From positions 21,463 to 85,462 of the IMG/VR virus record IMGVR_UViG_3300034062_004592: 64,000 nt of DNA; one strand, written 5' to 3'. Of the stretch, positions 33,813 to 38,526 are shown piece by piece. This DNA is from a virus. Position 1 is the stretch's first letter, and each line of letters starts with the position of its first letter. The notes below the pieces were generated by a model. That model was not told the origin of the DNA. It did not search any database and saw only the letters and a program-made list of their open reading frames with translations. Both the position numbers and the translations under genes were made by a program.

Positions 33813-34165
33813 TGGGAAATGGCCGGCATCTGATACTGGATCTATACGATTGTGATCCAGAGGTTTTGGATGATTACCAGGAGCTTCAACGATTGCTTGA
33901 GGCTTCTTTGGTAATGGCCAAAGCAACTATCCTGCGCATTATTGGCGAGAAGTTTAAGCCGCAAGGTGTCACGCTATTAGCACTGCTGGCTGAATCCCAC
34001 GCATCCATTCATACATGGCCTTGCGAAAGGTACTGTGCTATTGATCTGTACACGTGTGGAGACAGAACAGAAACCCATAAAGCTGCTGAATTTTTAAAGC
34101 ACAAACTCAAGGCCCAGTATTGTGAGCAAAAAGAAATTGAAAGAAAAGTTTTCAGAGATCCTTAG
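33812..34165 (+). CDS. speD: S-adenosylmethionine decarboxylase
   Basis: 117 residues, GTG start overlapping the primase stop. GRHLILDLYDCD at the N-terminus, then LLAESHASIHTWP (58-70) with the self-cleavage pair E61-S62 that yields the pyruvoyl group, catalytic H67 and C82 in DLYTCG. Prokaryotic SpeD makes decarboxylated AdoMet for spermidine. Usual length is 120-135. Known as a metabolic gene in cyanophages. Its end overlaps the minus-strand HNH gene by 14 bases. Confidence 0.93.
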   Translation: MGNGRHLILDLYDCDPEVLDDYQELQRLLEASLVMAKATILRIIGEKFKPQGVTLLALLAESHASIHTWPCERYCAIDLYTCGDRTETHKAAEFLKHKLKAQYCEQKEIERKVFRDP

Positions 34166-34694
34166 GCCACATGGTTTCAAGCCTACTTGCTAACGCTGCA
34201 AAGTAAGCCTCTTCTTTTGTTTTGAACACGCCCAGGTAAATGCGTTTTTTACCAACTTTGTATTCGACCTGCCAATTGGTAGAGTTTGCTATGGCGTACA
34301 CGTATTTATATCCGGTTTGATTTTTTACTTTTTGGTTTTTCTTTTGAAGGGATGCATCTGCCCACCTAAGGTTGCCGGGTCCGTATCCCAAGCTTGAATT
34401 AATACGGTCTAAAGAGTAACCTTCTTTCTTTTCCCCTAAATTGTTTTCTACATACTCTAAAAACAAACAAAATCCTAAAGACCACCTTTTAATTTGAGGG
34501 TGTCGGGATTTATTCCGCCATTCCTCAAAAACAAAAATACCTTTTCCACCATAACGTTTGTATGAAATTGAATTGATGGAGTGACACCTTTCAAGCATTC
34601 CGCGCCACGTGTTGTACAGCGGGTGCTTGTTCATCGCGCCTGCGCGACTTTGTATTTGCTGAAGTGAAATCTCTTTTAAAGCCGGGCGTGCCAT
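34152..34694 (-). CDS. HNH/AP2-type homing endonuclease
   Basis: 180 residues from MARPALKEI (an ATG four codons earlier is possible). Pattern YNTWRGMLERCHS, SYKRYGGKGI, EGYSLDRINSSLGYGPGNLR then WAD and a C-terminal AP2-like DNA-binding domain (YKYVYAIANSTNWQVEYKVG, YLGVFKTKEEAYFA). Free-standing homing endonucleases of this type spread between phages. A+T-rich compared with its neighbours. Confidence 0.85.
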   Translation of the reverse strand: MARPALKEISLQQIQSRAGAMNKHPLYNTWRGMLERCHSINSISYKRYGGKGIFVFEEWRNKSRHPQIKRWSLGFCLFLEYVENNLGEKKEGYSLDRINSSLGYGPGNLRWADASLQKKNQKVKNQTGYKYVYAIANSTNWQVEYKVGKKRIYLGVFKTKEEAYFAALASRLETMWPKDL

Positions 34695-34784
34695 GTTAAA
34701 AAACATAGTTTAACACACACGGGCCGGAGTGTGGTCGACTGCTCCGTCGAATTGAGTATAGTAAAACGAGATAATCCATCTTAA

Positions 34785-36047
34785 ATGGCTAAAAAAACTA
34801 AGATCCTTTGGGTTGCTGACTTTGCAGCAATGACTGGTTTCGGCCGTGTCAGTGGTGCGGTACTGCCGCGACTGAAGGATGACTTTGAAATTGTGGTGCT
34901 CGCATGTAATTGGCATGGGGATCCAACGGATGAACAGAAAGATTTCAAGATGTATCCTGCGTCCAACCGATTCCAGCAGGCGCCCTTTGGTGAGGATCGC
35001 ATTCGGGAGATTGTTGAGAAGGAACAGCCGGATATTGTGTTCAGCTTGAATGATCCTTGGATTGTCAGTGAACAGTACAGGCGTATTCAAGATCTGCATC
35101 AGCAAAAGAAGTTTAAGTTCTGTGGCTACCTCACGATGGATAGCTACAACTGGATTGGTGGCATCGATGCACACATCAATGAATGGGATGCGTTGATTGC
35201 GTTTACGGAATTTGGTGCATACGAATTCTTTAAGGCGGGTATCACCAAGCCGGTCACTGTAATTCCACATGGGTTGGATACAGATCTCTTTTATCCCATG
35301 GATAAGAAGGAGGCACGCAAGAAGCTGGGGCTATCGGATGACATCTTCATCTGCCTGAATGCCAACAGGAATCAGTTCCGCAAACGGATGGACATTACGA
35401 TTGCAGCCTTTGCCAAGTTCGCAGTCGGTCGCCCGGATACGCAACTTTATATGCACTGCGGTACCAAGGATCAGGGGTGGGATATCATGCCGCTCTTCGG
35501 GCGGGAGATGAGTAAGAACGGACTTGATCCGAACGGTCGCATCATCATGACCAATAACAACCAGGGGCCGCCGAACGTTTCGGTGGAGTTCCTGAATTGC
35601 ATCTATAACGCGGCTGATATTGGGATCAATACCACCAAGGGGGGTGGCTGGGAACTGGTCAACTTTGAGAATGCTGCCTGTCGTGTGGCGCAAGTGGTGC
35701 CGGATCACACCAGTACCAAAGAGATTTTTGAGGGCCATGGCTGCCTCATTCGTTGTGACCACGTGGATGTGGACACCAACATGGCACGGGAGATGCCCTG
35801 CCCCTCCGACCAACACCTGGCGCAGATCCTTGCCAACCTCTACGACGATCGGGAGTACCTGAACAGTGTGGCCGATGCCTGCTACAAGCGGGTGACGGAT
35901 CCTCAATTTAGTTGGGACTCAGTTGCGTCTCAGTTTGGTGGAGTGTTCCAGGAGGTGATGGAGGCTGGTGAACCGGAAATGGAAGAGAAACCAAAGAAGA
36001 AAAAGAAGGAGAAGAAGGAAAAACGCACGGTTGGGGCTGCGGCGTGA
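34785..36047 (+). CDS. GT4-type glycosyltransferase
   Basis: 420 residues. GT-B fold: N-terminal ILWVADFAAMTGFGRVSGA, then VIPHGLDTDLFYP opening the nucleotide-sugar domain, and GGGWELVNFENAACRV with the E-x7-E-like donor motif. It transfers a sugar from a nucleotide donor, perhaps to virion proteins, phage DNA or host surface. A Lys-rich tail (residues about 400-416) is an unusual addition. A terminator follows. Confidence 0.85.
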   Translation: MAKKTKILWVADFAAMTGFGRVSGAVLPRLKDDFEIVVLACNWHGDPTDEQKDFKMYPASNRFQQAPFGEDRIREIVEKEQPDIVFSLNDPWIVSEQYRRIQDLHQQKKFKFCGYLTMDSYNWIGGIDAHINEWDALIAFTEFGAYEFFKAGITKPVTVIPHGLDTDLFYPMDKKEARKKLGLSDDIFICLNANRNQFRKRMDITIAAFAKFAVGRPDTQLYMHCGTKDQGWDIMPLFGREMSKNGLDPNGRIIMTNNNQGPPNVSVEFLNCIYNAADIGINTTKGGGWELVNFENAACRVAQVVPDHTSTKEIFEGHGCLIRCDHVDVDTNMAREMPCPSDQHLAQILANLYDDREYLNSVADACYKRVTDPQFSWDSVASQFGGVFQEVMEAGEPEMEEKPKKKKKEKKEKRTVGAAA

Positions 36048-36097
36048 GACTGGTCTCATGTGAGATGGCTGAGGCTTGATTGGTGCCAAGGTGATGG

Positions 36098-36124
36098 ATC
36101 CCCTGGAAACAGGGGATTTTTTGT
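36098..36124 (+). terminator. Rho-independent terminator
   Basis: ATCCCCTG (36098-36105) pairs with CAGGGGAT around GAAA, followed by a T run. A TGAGAC/GTCTCA palindrome spans the preceding stop codon (36045-36058). Confidence 0.9.
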
Positions 36125-36165
36125 AGCAAGGTGTACGCATTGAGGAGGTGGGGTACGGGTGAAAT

Positions 36166-36381
36166 CCGATAAAACCCCCTTCCTATCTTTACGTGACGCA
36201 CATGACACTTTCAGTAAAGTGTCATTATTTGAGTCATGGTGAGACGGGAATGAGACGGTGGGATTGGTGGGTTGTGCTTAGTGTCTCAAGTACAATCTCA
36301 CTTGAGAATCCTTGACAAATAATGACACTTTCGGCAAAGTGTCATTTGGATCTAATAAAGATAAACAGGGGGTTTTATCGG
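36166..36381. promoter_or_regulatory. Inverted-repeat control region
   Basis: The only gap above 300 bases (36048-36386). Outer 15-bp inverted repeat: CCGATAAAACCCCCT (36166-36180) and its complement (36367-36381). Inside are two 24-bp palindromes, ATGACACTTT-4-AAAGTGTCAT, at 36202-36225 and 36322-36345, exactly 120 bases apart, plus TCTCAAGT/ACTTGAGA (36284-36307). TTGACA at 36312 is a -35 candidate partly covered by the second palindrome. Looks like an operator array or a replication origin. Confidence 0.7.
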
Positions 36382-36386
36382 GTTCT

Positions 36387-36722
36387 ATGGCTAGACCAGG
36401 CGCACCACTGCCACCTCTCTGGTACTTGGAGTCCCAGCTTCGGTTGTCGACTCAGTACCCATCTGGCCTGGAGTGGGCCTGTACCACGGGCTGGCACGCT
36501 GAAGGAGACATGGCCGGGAAACACGTCCCATCCACCCGCTACTACGTGGTGAGGCTGGGGGGAGGGCAGTACCAGGCCCACAGGCTTGTCTACTTCCTAC
36601 GCACCGGCCAGGACCCCCTGGAGGCCTCTGTCATTCACGTCGCATCTGACCATGACAACCGCAAGGAGTTGATCCTTCGTTCCAGATCCCCTACCACCAA
36701 TCTCATATTGGACTCAAATTGA
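36387..36722 (+). CDS. HNH-type endonuclease-like protein
   Basis: 111 residues from MARPGAPLPPLWYLESQL. The pattern YYVVRLGGGQYQAHRLVYFL and TGQDPLEASVIHVASDHDN resembles the core of phage HNH homing nucleases (AHRxxW/Y, VxHxxxDxxxN). His and Asn candidates are present though the motif is loose. It follows the inverted-repeat region. Confidence 0.6.
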   Translation: MARPGAPLPPLWYLESQLRLSTQYPSGLEWACTTGWHAEGDMAGKHVPSTRYYVVRLGGGQYQAHRLVYFLRTGQDPLEASVIHVASDHDNRKELILRSRSPTTNLILDSN

Positions 36723-36723
36723 C

Positions 36724-37395
36724 ATGGCAAATTTGATTGCTCAGGTTTCCGAACTCAACGCTCGGCTCAACATTCGTTATTTGCGAAATGCAAATCAATG
36801 TGACGACAAGACCCTCGATGAGCACGGCTACTACCGGGGTTATGTGTGTCCGCACAACCACGACATACGTGACCAGGAAAACCATTGGTGTTACTACTGT
36901 GTCCAGAAAATCTGGAAGAACGTCTGTGGTTTTGACATCAACTACCTGGATCCCAACTACAAACACAAATACGCCGCGATCTGGAACCGAATCAATGTCA
37001 CAACCATGGATGAGTGCTGGCACATACGTGGCAATTCCAAACGTGCATGCCTTCCTTCTTACCGTTCTCACTACGCCAAGCAATCATCTGAATACGTCTC
37101 GCTCCACAAAGCTGTCTACCAGTGCGCATGGGGAGATGTTGGTAAGTTTTTTGTGACTCGCGTGTGTGGCAATCCGGAATGTTTTAATCCTGTACACATG
37201 CTTTCCAGCTGGAACAGGGACTATCCCCCTGGCCGCATTCACCCACTTGTCTTGGAATTTGAGCCAAGTAAATTGATGTGCTATGCCAGGGCGCGGAAGA
37301 AAGTGCAGGCTGACGCTCTGGCTGCCACGCAGTACAAACAAACAATTACCAATCCACGGGAAGCAGGACCACCACCTGAATACGATGAGGGTTGA
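36724..37395 (+). CDS. Zinc-binding, homing-endonuclease-like protein
   Basis: 223 residues. An N-terminal Cys/His cluster (CPHNH, HWCYYC at about 42-60) and a C-terminal RVCGNPECFNPVHML resemble the zinc-binding loops of I-PpoI-like/HNH homing nucleases. The end is Pro-rich and charged. It begins one base after the previous stop. Nuclease activity is inferred only. Confidence 0.6.
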   Translation: MANLIAQVSELNARLNIRYLRNANQCDDKTLDEHGYYRGYVCPHNHDIRDQENHWCYYCVQKIWKNVCGFDINYLDPNYKHKYAAIWNRINVTTMDECWHIRGNSKRACLPSYRSHYAKQSSEYVSLHKAVYQCAWGDVGKFFVTRVCGNPECFNPVHMLSSWNRDYPPGRIHPLVLEFEPSKLMCYARARKKVQADALAATQYKQTITNPREAGPPPEYDEG

Positions 37396-37437
37396 ATTGA
37401 GCGCACTTACAATAAGGAAAAGGAATTATATCAAATA

Positions 37438-38526
37438 ATGTCGCGCAACCCGGCTATTGCCCAAGCCAATCGCAGTAAAGCAAATCCATTGGTACTTGGT
37501 ACCTTTAATACAACTTCACTGCGTTATCTAAAGGGTAGGCTGGGCCCGCAAAATAAAGTCATTGGCTATAGGGATACCAACCAAACGTCAAACGGTGGTT
37601 TTGGTGGCGGTGCTTACAACCATTGGTTTCAAATTAACCTAGAAAAACCCGGCTGGATTATTGCCGTCAAAGGTCCGCCGCGTCCAAACTACATTCAAGT
37701 CTCTGCATACGATCTTAATTCCATTCCTATTCAAGGGAGGGGTATTTTTGACGAGGATTCAATTTCTGTTGTAGACAACAACGAAATTTTTTATCCGTAT
37801 TTGGGTAAAGTGATGAAAACCCAATCAAATTTTTACAATCAATTTGTTGCTTATCGTTTAGATCGAGGTGATGATCGTTATTATTCTCTCACTGCAGGCA
37901 GCTATTTAATCTGTGTTTCAACAACACGCAATGAACCACTTGAGTACGAACTGGGAATTGTTGTTGAGTTTTCTCCAACAGAGTTGTTTATTTCATTAGA
38001 AGACGAAGATCAAGTTACTCTTTGGCTTCAAGAAACCTCGGTTGATTACAGTCGTACAATCAATGTTATTTCTCCTGTTACAACCAACATTGTAATTTCA
38101 AACAACGTAGATCAACCCAATGGCTTTACTGATACGCTATCTCAAATAAATTTAGGTTTTACGGTTATTGTTTTATCAGGATCTACGTGGTTAATTGGTG
38201 TCCTTCCATCGTCACAAGCACAAGAATATGGTGTTTTAGGTGAATCAAGTAATGATGAAGAATTTTTTAACACAATCCACAATCATTCTTTGGGGGAATG
38301 GCAAGCCGCTTGGGAATCAGAACACCAAGATACGGATAAATTCCCCAGTCTTTTTATTCCTTTAACCGACAGGGTGCCAATTGGAACTCTTCCCTTAAAC
38401 ACAGAAGTGCCGATACCTCCTCCCGGCGGTGGCGATGTCGGTGATCTTGAAGACTACTGGGCTGACATGGTTATACAGCTTTACAATTGGCAAGAGCTGT
38501 TTTATATTGGCTGGTGGGGTAATTGA
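37438..38526 (+). CDS. Putative structural protein
   Basis: 362 residues, strand-rich (NLEKPGWIIAVKGPPRPNYI, YSLTAGSYLICVSTTRNEP), A+T-rich, with a Pro/Gly linker before an acidic, aromatic C-terminus ending LFYIGWWGN. The middle resembles bacterial prepeptidase-type beta sandwiches. Not recognised; a virion role is likely but unproven. Confidence 0.65.
   Translation: MSRNPAIAQANRSKANPLVLGTFNTTSLRYLKGRLGPQNKVIGYRDTNQTSNGGFGGGAYNHWFQINLEKPGWIIAVKGPPRPNYIQVSAYDLNSIPIQGRGIFDEDSISVVDNNEIFYPYLGKVMKTQSNFYNQFVAYRLDRGDDRYYSLTAGSYLICVSTTRNEPLEYELGIVVEFSPTELFISLEDEDQVTLWLQETSVDYSRTINVISPVTTNIVISNNVDQPNGFTDTLSQINLGFTVIVLSGSTWLIGVLPSSQAQEYGVLGESSNDEEFFNTIHNHSLGEWQAAWESEHQDTDKFPSLFIPLTDRVPIGTLPLNTEVPIPPPGGGDVGDLEDYWADMVIQLYNWQELFYIGWWGN

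Follow-up and report, generated by a model that had tools for sequence, protein, structure and literature searches.

The repeat-rich locus and its setting

What is the role of a stretch crowded with inverted repeats that lies between a glycosyltransferase gene and two HNH-like genes in a phage genome? In the DNA analysed here (64,000 nucleotides, called the window, and part of an 85,462-base virus record), a first-pass annotation had listed an outer 15-bp inverted repeat, two palindromes, an inner pair, a terminator and the words TGAGAC/GTCTCA, all of which were recovered in place, and had proposed either an operator array bound more than once by a regulator or an origin of replication or recombination site. 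Judging from its protein matches, the phage is a relative of cyanophage S-EIVl: the primase has 54.5% full-length identity to that of Synechococcus phage S-EIVl, which was also the sole match of HNH2 among 50,697 phage records (E<=1e-3). The host is therefore probably a cyanobacterium. The repeat region had been described as free of genes. A TTG-started frame from 36312 does cross palindrome 2 and enter HNH1 in the window, and an equivalent frame reaches HNH1 in three related loci (L045, L051 and L052), but it is not open into HNH1 in L047, L048, L053, L055 (the contig of L008), L056 and L058; because of this lack of continuity in several relatives, the frame was taken as non-coding.

Anatomy of the element

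The repeats form one imperfect inverted repeat, each arm of which holds a palindrome (Table 1). Its arms (36163-36231 and 36316-36384) are 69 nt long, 80% complementary and 84 nt apart. The outer arms a and d, here called type A, start 201 bases apart and are exact over 15 bp, and the two palindromes, whose half-sites resemble TGACACTTT (type B), follow the consensus ATGACACTTTN4AAAGTGTCAT, with starts spaced by 120 bases. Boxes resembling CTAATAAAGATAAAC were spotted by eye in relatives, and a pattern scan upstream of HNH1 detected them in only 7 of 40 loci, one of these hits lying far upstream. The aligned relatives also have a hairpin and T run at the position of the terminator. TGAGAC (36045) and GTCTCA (36053) lie at the stop codon of the upstream gene, and 5 of the 24 copies of these words in the window fall in 36040-36386. 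At least one copy was present upstream of HNH1 in 26 of 33 representative loci (defined below), and in relatives 54 copies were counted per 12,540 bases upstream of HNH1 versus 32 per 49,500 bases downstream; the word is possibly a third binding site. The 4-base loop of palindrome 1 (36212-36215) reads CAGT in some close relatives and the reverse-complementary ACTG in others, which looks like an inversion of the loop.

Table 1. Features of the repeat element and flanking genes (window coordinates).
Feature	Position	Strand	Sequence	Remarks
Glycosyltransferase	34785..36047	+		Gene upstream of element; precedes HNH1 in 76/80 related loci
Terminator after glycosyltransferase gene	36098..36122	+		Hairpin 36098-36117, then T run to 36122
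Whole mirror-image element	36163..36386	+		Terminator to HNH1 start; strongest inverted repeat of 335 windows
Outer arm a (type A)	36166..36180	+	CCGATAAAACCCCCT	Exact inverted copy of arm d
Palindrome 1 (type B)	36202..36225	.	ATGACACTTTCAGTAAAGTGTCAT	24 bases
Inner hairpin	36284..36307	.	TCTCAAGT/ACTTGAGA	Halves 36284-36291 / 36300-36307
Palindrome 2 (type B)	36322..36345	.	ATGACACTTTCGGCAAAGTGTCAT	24 bases
TATA-like box	36352..36366	+	CTAATAAAGATAAAC	Beside palindrome 2; putative promoter part
Outer arm d (type A)	36367..36381	-	AGGGGGTTTTATCGG	Exact 15 bp; ends 5 bases before HNH1 start codon
HNH1	36387..36722	+		111 aa, degenerate HNH protein
HNH2	36724..37395	+		Second HNH-like protein (223 aa); gene follows HNH1

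The inverted repeat is real and far above chance. Among 335 sliding windows of 380 bases the element scored 27, and the other 334 reached at most 13; the 99th percentile of 320 windows taken downstream of HNH1 in the related loci was likewise 13, and the single score of 34 among these came from a window of a short locus (L112) overlapping that locus's own element. When up to three mismatches are allowed, the window contains the palindrome twice, whereas 100 shuffled versions did not contain it at all. The search for further palindromes suggested by the first-pass annotation yielded no copy elsewhere in the 85,462-base record at up to two mismatches. Comparison of the element with phages and plasmids by blastn gave no match, and an Rfam search of 35800-36800 returned two matches, both below the gathering score, the better of which (MIR5638; E 0.0067, with 19.1 bits where the cut-off is 500) was dismissed as a chance fit to the inverted repeat.

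Recurrence in related phages

When viral contigs were scanned for the palindrome, 11 stretches emerged, of which 9 contained two copies 120 bases apart. The equal spacing thus holds for the window and its close relatives and is not general: a distant relative (L008) carries one exact palindrome and a one-mismatch copy at a spacing of 70. One single palindrome (L010) read by eye as coding sequence and was dropped as a chance occurrence. The same pattern was found in bacterial genomes in 8 stretches with one exact copy each; these were rejected as relatives, being interpreted as terminator hairpins between genes (in Saprospiraceae, Phaeodactylibacter and Lachnospiraceae-type records).

Searches with HNH2 and HNH1 gave 32 loci and 135 relatives, respectively, and 80 of the latter were examined for synteny. 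HNH2 came next in 80/80, a glycosyltransferase gene preceded HNH1 in 76/80, and a homologue of the 37438 gene followed in 77/80; the four absent glycosyltransferases and one absent 37438 gene all belong to loci that end early, and about 750 extra bases precede HNH2 in L079 and L080. The conserved gene order therefore points to a locus inherited in place. For comparison of upstream regions, those sharing at least 25% of 11-mers were reduced and loci whose upstream sequence was shorter than 300 bases were dropped, leaving, out of 80 upstream regions, 33 representatives including the window. An inverted repeat of score 14 or higher was present in 21 of these, its sequence being lineage-specific, and the remaining 12 were without a strong inverted repeat upstream of HNH1; in many relatives the repeats are thus conserved in structure.

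S-EIVl has the same order of primase, S-adenosylmethionine decarboxylase, glycosyltransferase, repeat element and HNH2 (annotated as hypothetical), and its strongest inverted repeat among 415 windows lies at this locus (score 16, next 14), with a 24-base repeat directly before HNH2. It differs from the window in its repeat sequences and in the absence of any HNH1 match. Since S-EIVl and two further loci inspected by eye (L066 and L067) keep the repeat without HNH1, HNH1 cannot be the sole reader of such elements, and in S-EIVl another reader must exist.

HNH1 is a degenerate member of the HNH family

The first-pass annotation had called the next genes HNH-like, which profile matches and modelling bear out. 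HNH1 matched phrog_99 (E 7.2e-7) and HNH2 phrog_1872 (E 1.7e-10). The HNH_3 profile was found in 6 of 16 HNH1 family members at E<=1 (best 2.7e-5), the HNH1 of the window itself being without a match. An AlphaFold2 model of HNH1 (mean pLDDT 85.9) gave nothing at E<=0.001 with Foldseek; a second look with VIA-align placed I-HmuI first (1u3e; Z 6.6, rmsd 5.6, 89 residues) and I-PpoI next (Z 4.3), values which, at Z under 8, are below the tool's safe level and weak alone. The phrog_99 and HNH_3 matches agree with the VIA-align result in placing HNH1 in the HNH family, and the protein may have the beta-beta-alpha metal fold of that family. A sequence comparison of HNH1 with solved structures gave one match, to a splicing factor (E 0.93), which was not useful.

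The roles of HNH1 positions 83 and 95 were read by comparison with I-HmuI. In 60 informative sequences of 61 unique relatives (one row being a gap), position 83, directly before the catalytic His, is never Asp, and position 95, the Asn of the ENL motif, is Leu in 58, Met in 2 and never Asn; the catalytic His itself is kept in 49 of the 60. The canonical form VDH...ENL, taken from a Klebsiella phage protein, is present in L150. Unlike HNH1, the Klebsiella phage protein has an additional C-terminal part, presumably AP2-like. By comparison with the metal-ligand and catalytic roles of HNH residues as outlined in PMC2816704, HNH1 lacks both metal ligands and has lost catalytic residues. The Asp before the catalytic His and the Asn ligand, which together mark an active HNH homing endonuclease, are thus replaced in HNH1, in contrast to I-HmuI. 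Within L069-L149, 42 of 46 matches to the CGNP-type motif of HNH2 (a redundant set) have Arg two residues before the motif, and the other 4 have His; His being usual there, HNH2 may also be inactive in many of these loci.

Outer arms and HNH1 differ together in the window group

Outer arms of the window group fall into two classes, TAAAAC (6 genomes: the window and L017-L021) and GAATGC (3 genomes: L022-L024); L020 and L021, indistinguishable at three decimals, together weigh as roughly one genome. Outside 36163-36722 the classes are not separate lineages, pairwise distances being alike within and between them. In the 9 genomes, 277 sites are polymorphic in 34787-37580 (about 2.8 kb, the right-hand bound having been chosen after the next gene proved hypervariable), and differences fixed between classes are confined to 6 sites near arm a (36170, 36173, 36174, 36180, 36182, 36183), 4 near arm d (36373, 36374, 36377, 36385) and 12 in HNH1, with 0 of 2414 sites elsewhere. 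Six of the ten fixed arm sites form exact mirror pairs (36170/36377, 36173/36374, 36174/36373), and four (36180, 36182, 36183, 36385) have no mirror in the other arm. Among the 84 possible 3-of-9 splits the next best had only 5 fixed sites, and when one genome at a time was left out, 0 to 3 fixed sites appeared elsewhere. Extension to a longer stretch in 8 genomes added one class-fixed site in the primase and one at 36146.

Fixed HNH1 codons comprised 7 non-synonymous and 2 synonymous differences, compared with 8 and 16, respectively, among the non-fixed codons; the amino acid changes are A2G, G5R, A6V, Y13H, Q17K, Q23R and S81D, and two further codons differ silently. Neither HNH2 nor the glycosyltransferase gene has a codon difference fixed between the arm classes. 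Part of the linkage may be physical, as arm d touches HNH1. However, linkage alone is not an easy explanation, because no class difference is fixed in the 180 bases between the arms (36184-36363) or in HNH1 between codons 23 and 80.

Type A is the fast-changing kind of repeat: the outer arms read TAAAACCCCC, GAATGCCCCC and ACAAATGCCCCC in the window group and ACTTGACCCCCC in L061, and they keep matching each other while their sequence shifts between relatives. Type B half-sites change more slowly (TGACACTTT, TTACACTTT, TTACATTTT), and in a further set of relatives, group 2, they are variable too. In L061 (2380-2460) the half-site ATGACACTTT is expanded to six tandem 12-base copies; the left arm contains copies in reversed orientation, and before HNH2, at 2929, there is a third palindrome.

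Co-variation in group 2

In group 2, type A is present in four copies, two direct and two inverted (one of the latter imperfect), and within constant flanks the core is ACACA, ACACT, CCGGA or AGACT. Between loci with different cores the repeat copies diverge at many sites: motif sites differed at 21/55 in L052 versus L058, 21/55 in L055 versus L056 and 22/55 in L053 versus L056, with 12/119, 14/119 and 22/119 of the other sites, respectively. The same-core pair L051 and L052 differed at 4/54 motif sites and 25/120 other sites, and L052 and L056, whose cores are one base apart, at 5/55 and 14/119. The four outer repeats thus change together.

HNH1 follows this pattern in part of the pairs. With different cores, L052/L058 differ at 18/79 N-terminal and 0/28 C-terminal HNH1 residues and at 6/200 residues of HNH2, and L053/L056 at 14/79, 2/28 and 2/222. 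With a common core, the corresponding numbers are 0/79, 8/28 and 4/200 for L053/L058 and 3/79, 3/28 and 16/222 for L051/L052, and 1/79 N-terminal residues differ for L047/L048. In these comparisons HNH1 residues 1-79 travel with the core, unlike the remainder of HNH1 and unlike HNH2. L055 is an exception: it shares its core with L053 and L058, yet differs from each at 16/79 HNH1 residues, and from L056, whose core is strongly different, at only 4/79. L052 and L056 also differ at 16/79 HNH1 residues, but at few motif sites. At residue 13 of HNH1, the ACACx lineages have R, those with CCGGA or AGACT have I or V, and the two classes of the window group have Y or H. A role of HNH2 as reader of the outer repeats found no support, as only 2-6 of its residues differ among L052, L053, L056 and L058 despite their different cores.

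A candidate operator array and its relation to the promoter

Together, the observed structure, recurrence, co-variation and loss of catalytic residues suggest a disabled DNA-cutting enzyme turned into a switch that reads the element, and from them we infer binding, repression and the position of the promoter. A mirror-symmetric operator array would control transcription of the HNH1-HNH2 genes; HNH1 would read the outer type A repeats as DNA and repress, or tune, its own promoter, and a second protein, possibly HNH2, may bind the slower-changing TGACACTTT palindromes. Rapid change of repeat and reader in step would then provide every lineage with a regulatory specificity of its own, much as phage repressors do with their operators. 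Of the functions first proposed, an operator array to which a regulator would bind repeatedly agrees best with the conserved structure, the placement between terminator and HNH genes and the co-variation of arms and HNH1. That the element is an operator array read by HNH1, with a dead HNH nuclease as local regulator, is a reading we regard as evenly balanced between right and wrong.

Of the 21 strong elements, 18 have a best-scoring ungapped stretch that stops more than 50 bases short of the HNH1 start codon; the outer arms may reach beyond the right end of this stretch. Promoter-like pairs with a spacing of 17-18 were found at -47 to -55 from the start in L078, L083, L086, L088, L096, L111 and L114 (those of L111 and L114 scoring only 7), and in L078, L083 and L111 they lie after the best stretch, at -51 to -55. 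In these same three loci a repeat copy at the promoter -10/+1 exceeds in length those of all 20 shuffles; in L086 it equals the shuffle maximum, and in L088, L096 and L114 it does not exceed it. Promoter scores of at least 8 were obtained for 9 of the 33 representatives, versus 11% in shuffles, and of these nine the window and L077 have a poor -10 and those of L085 and L129 lie far upstream. The window has no good promoter, the best being TTGACA-17-CAAAGT.

Alternative explanations

The element could instead act as RNA, a reading we consider unlikely: the long stem would hide the HNH1 ribosome-binding site in read-through transcripts and leave it free in internally started ones, so that the arms co-vary as RNA pairs. 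T4 endonucleases employ RNA hairpins over the ribosome-binding site (PMC2988022), arm d of the window (AGGGGG...) reaches to within 5 bases of the start codon, three pairs compensate exactly between arm classes, and the + strand has a folding energy of -94.3 kcal/mol (z -8.4), as expected of any long inverted repeat. However, the distance of most best stretches from the start codon, with a likely promoter after the stretch in some, speaks against it, and arm mismatches are balanced (G-T 93 versus A-C 99, a hand sum over 22 non-independent loci), so that no RNA strand is favoured. The gap to the gene, the promoter-like pairs and the balanced mismatches support a role as DNA rather than RNA, and an RNA hairpin would leave unexplained the co-variation with HNH1 residue 81 and the direct copy c of group 2.

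An origin, in which the repeats would be iterons for the upstream P4-like primase-helicase, is improbable. The element lies about 2.4 kb beyond the end of the primase gene, P4 alpha is among the relatives of the primase, and the six tandem 12-base copies of the TGACACTTT unit in L061 would suit iterons, but the primase has a single class-fixed difference in 1987 sites (the first part of the gene being uncovered). In S-EIVl the element lies near 7.8 kb and the global GC-skew extremes at about 34 and 74 kb, although skew there tracks gene content and an extreme at the site would be no more than a supporting sign. The origin or recombination site proposed at first is thus without positive support.

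Little credence is given to the element as a recognition or homing (nicking) site kept in step with an active HNH nuclease; family membership, the I-HmuI-like model and the co-variation with HNH1 would suit it, but both metal ligands are replaced in the 60 informative HNH1 sequences, and the 80 examined loci are syntenic, not scattered. It is very unlikely that the element is functionless, its arms kept alike and its loops flipped by template switching between quasi-palindrome arms. Such switching would account for the flipped CAGT/ACTG loop and for arms changing in concert, and would leave unexplained the tie to HNH1 amino acids, the palindromes kept in L008 and the persistence at one locus in many relatives. 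A transposon or MITE was rejected, there being no second copy in the record and a constant gene order (HNH2 after HNH1 in 80/80, glycosyltransferase before in 76/80).

Comparison with known regulatory systems

For the operator array proposed here, I-TevI of phage T4, described in PMC2988022 as binding an operator that overlaps its own late promoter and repressing it, offers a parallel: a protein of homing-endonuclease type regulates its own gene through a promoter operator (demonstrated for I-TevI, proposed for HNH1), and the endonuclease-family gene lies directly downstream of the site. I-TevI differs in being an active GIY-YIG enzyme, whereas HNH1 is of HNH type with replaced metal ligands, and the present element is large, multi-copy, mirror-image, fast-changing and co-varying with the protein. 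If correct, the proposal would add an HNH counterpart of I-TevI autorepression that dispenses with nuclease activity and uses a far larger mirror-image operator. No account of such an element was found in the open-licence PMC literature. In lambdoid phages, repressor and operators change together; the present repeat and its proposed reader resemble these immunity systems in differing together and in travelling as a cassette in part of the pairs, and differ from them in that no HTH repressor is proposed. HNH genes are common 'selfish' phage genes, degenerate copies of which are easily dismissed as decaying. A degenerate HNH1 that is held in place and co-varies with a DNA element points instead to domestication as a regulator. 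More tentatively, and with more doubt than confidence, we suggest that a catalytically dead HNH homing endonuclease may serve as a phage transcription factor of a new kind whose first approximately 80 residues set its specificity, passed from phage to phage in one cassette with a multi-copy mirror-image operator and giving each lineage a private, immunity-like code. The natural paired arm and protein variants represent a ready-made set for specificity swaps, in a lineage that includes a named relative of known host, S-EIVl.

Variable genes flanking the locus

On the - strand of the window, an HNH endonuclease gene (34152-34706) lies between speD and the glycosyltransferase gene. No match to it was found in 17 related loci, several of which share contigs and not all of which span the spot, and bases 34166-34706 are present only in the window among 8 aligned genomes. 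On the other side, the gene following HNH2 (37587-38487) is hypervariable, differing by 12-22% between the arm classes compared with about 2-4% for HNH2, and 10 further class-fixed sites are located in it beyond 37787.
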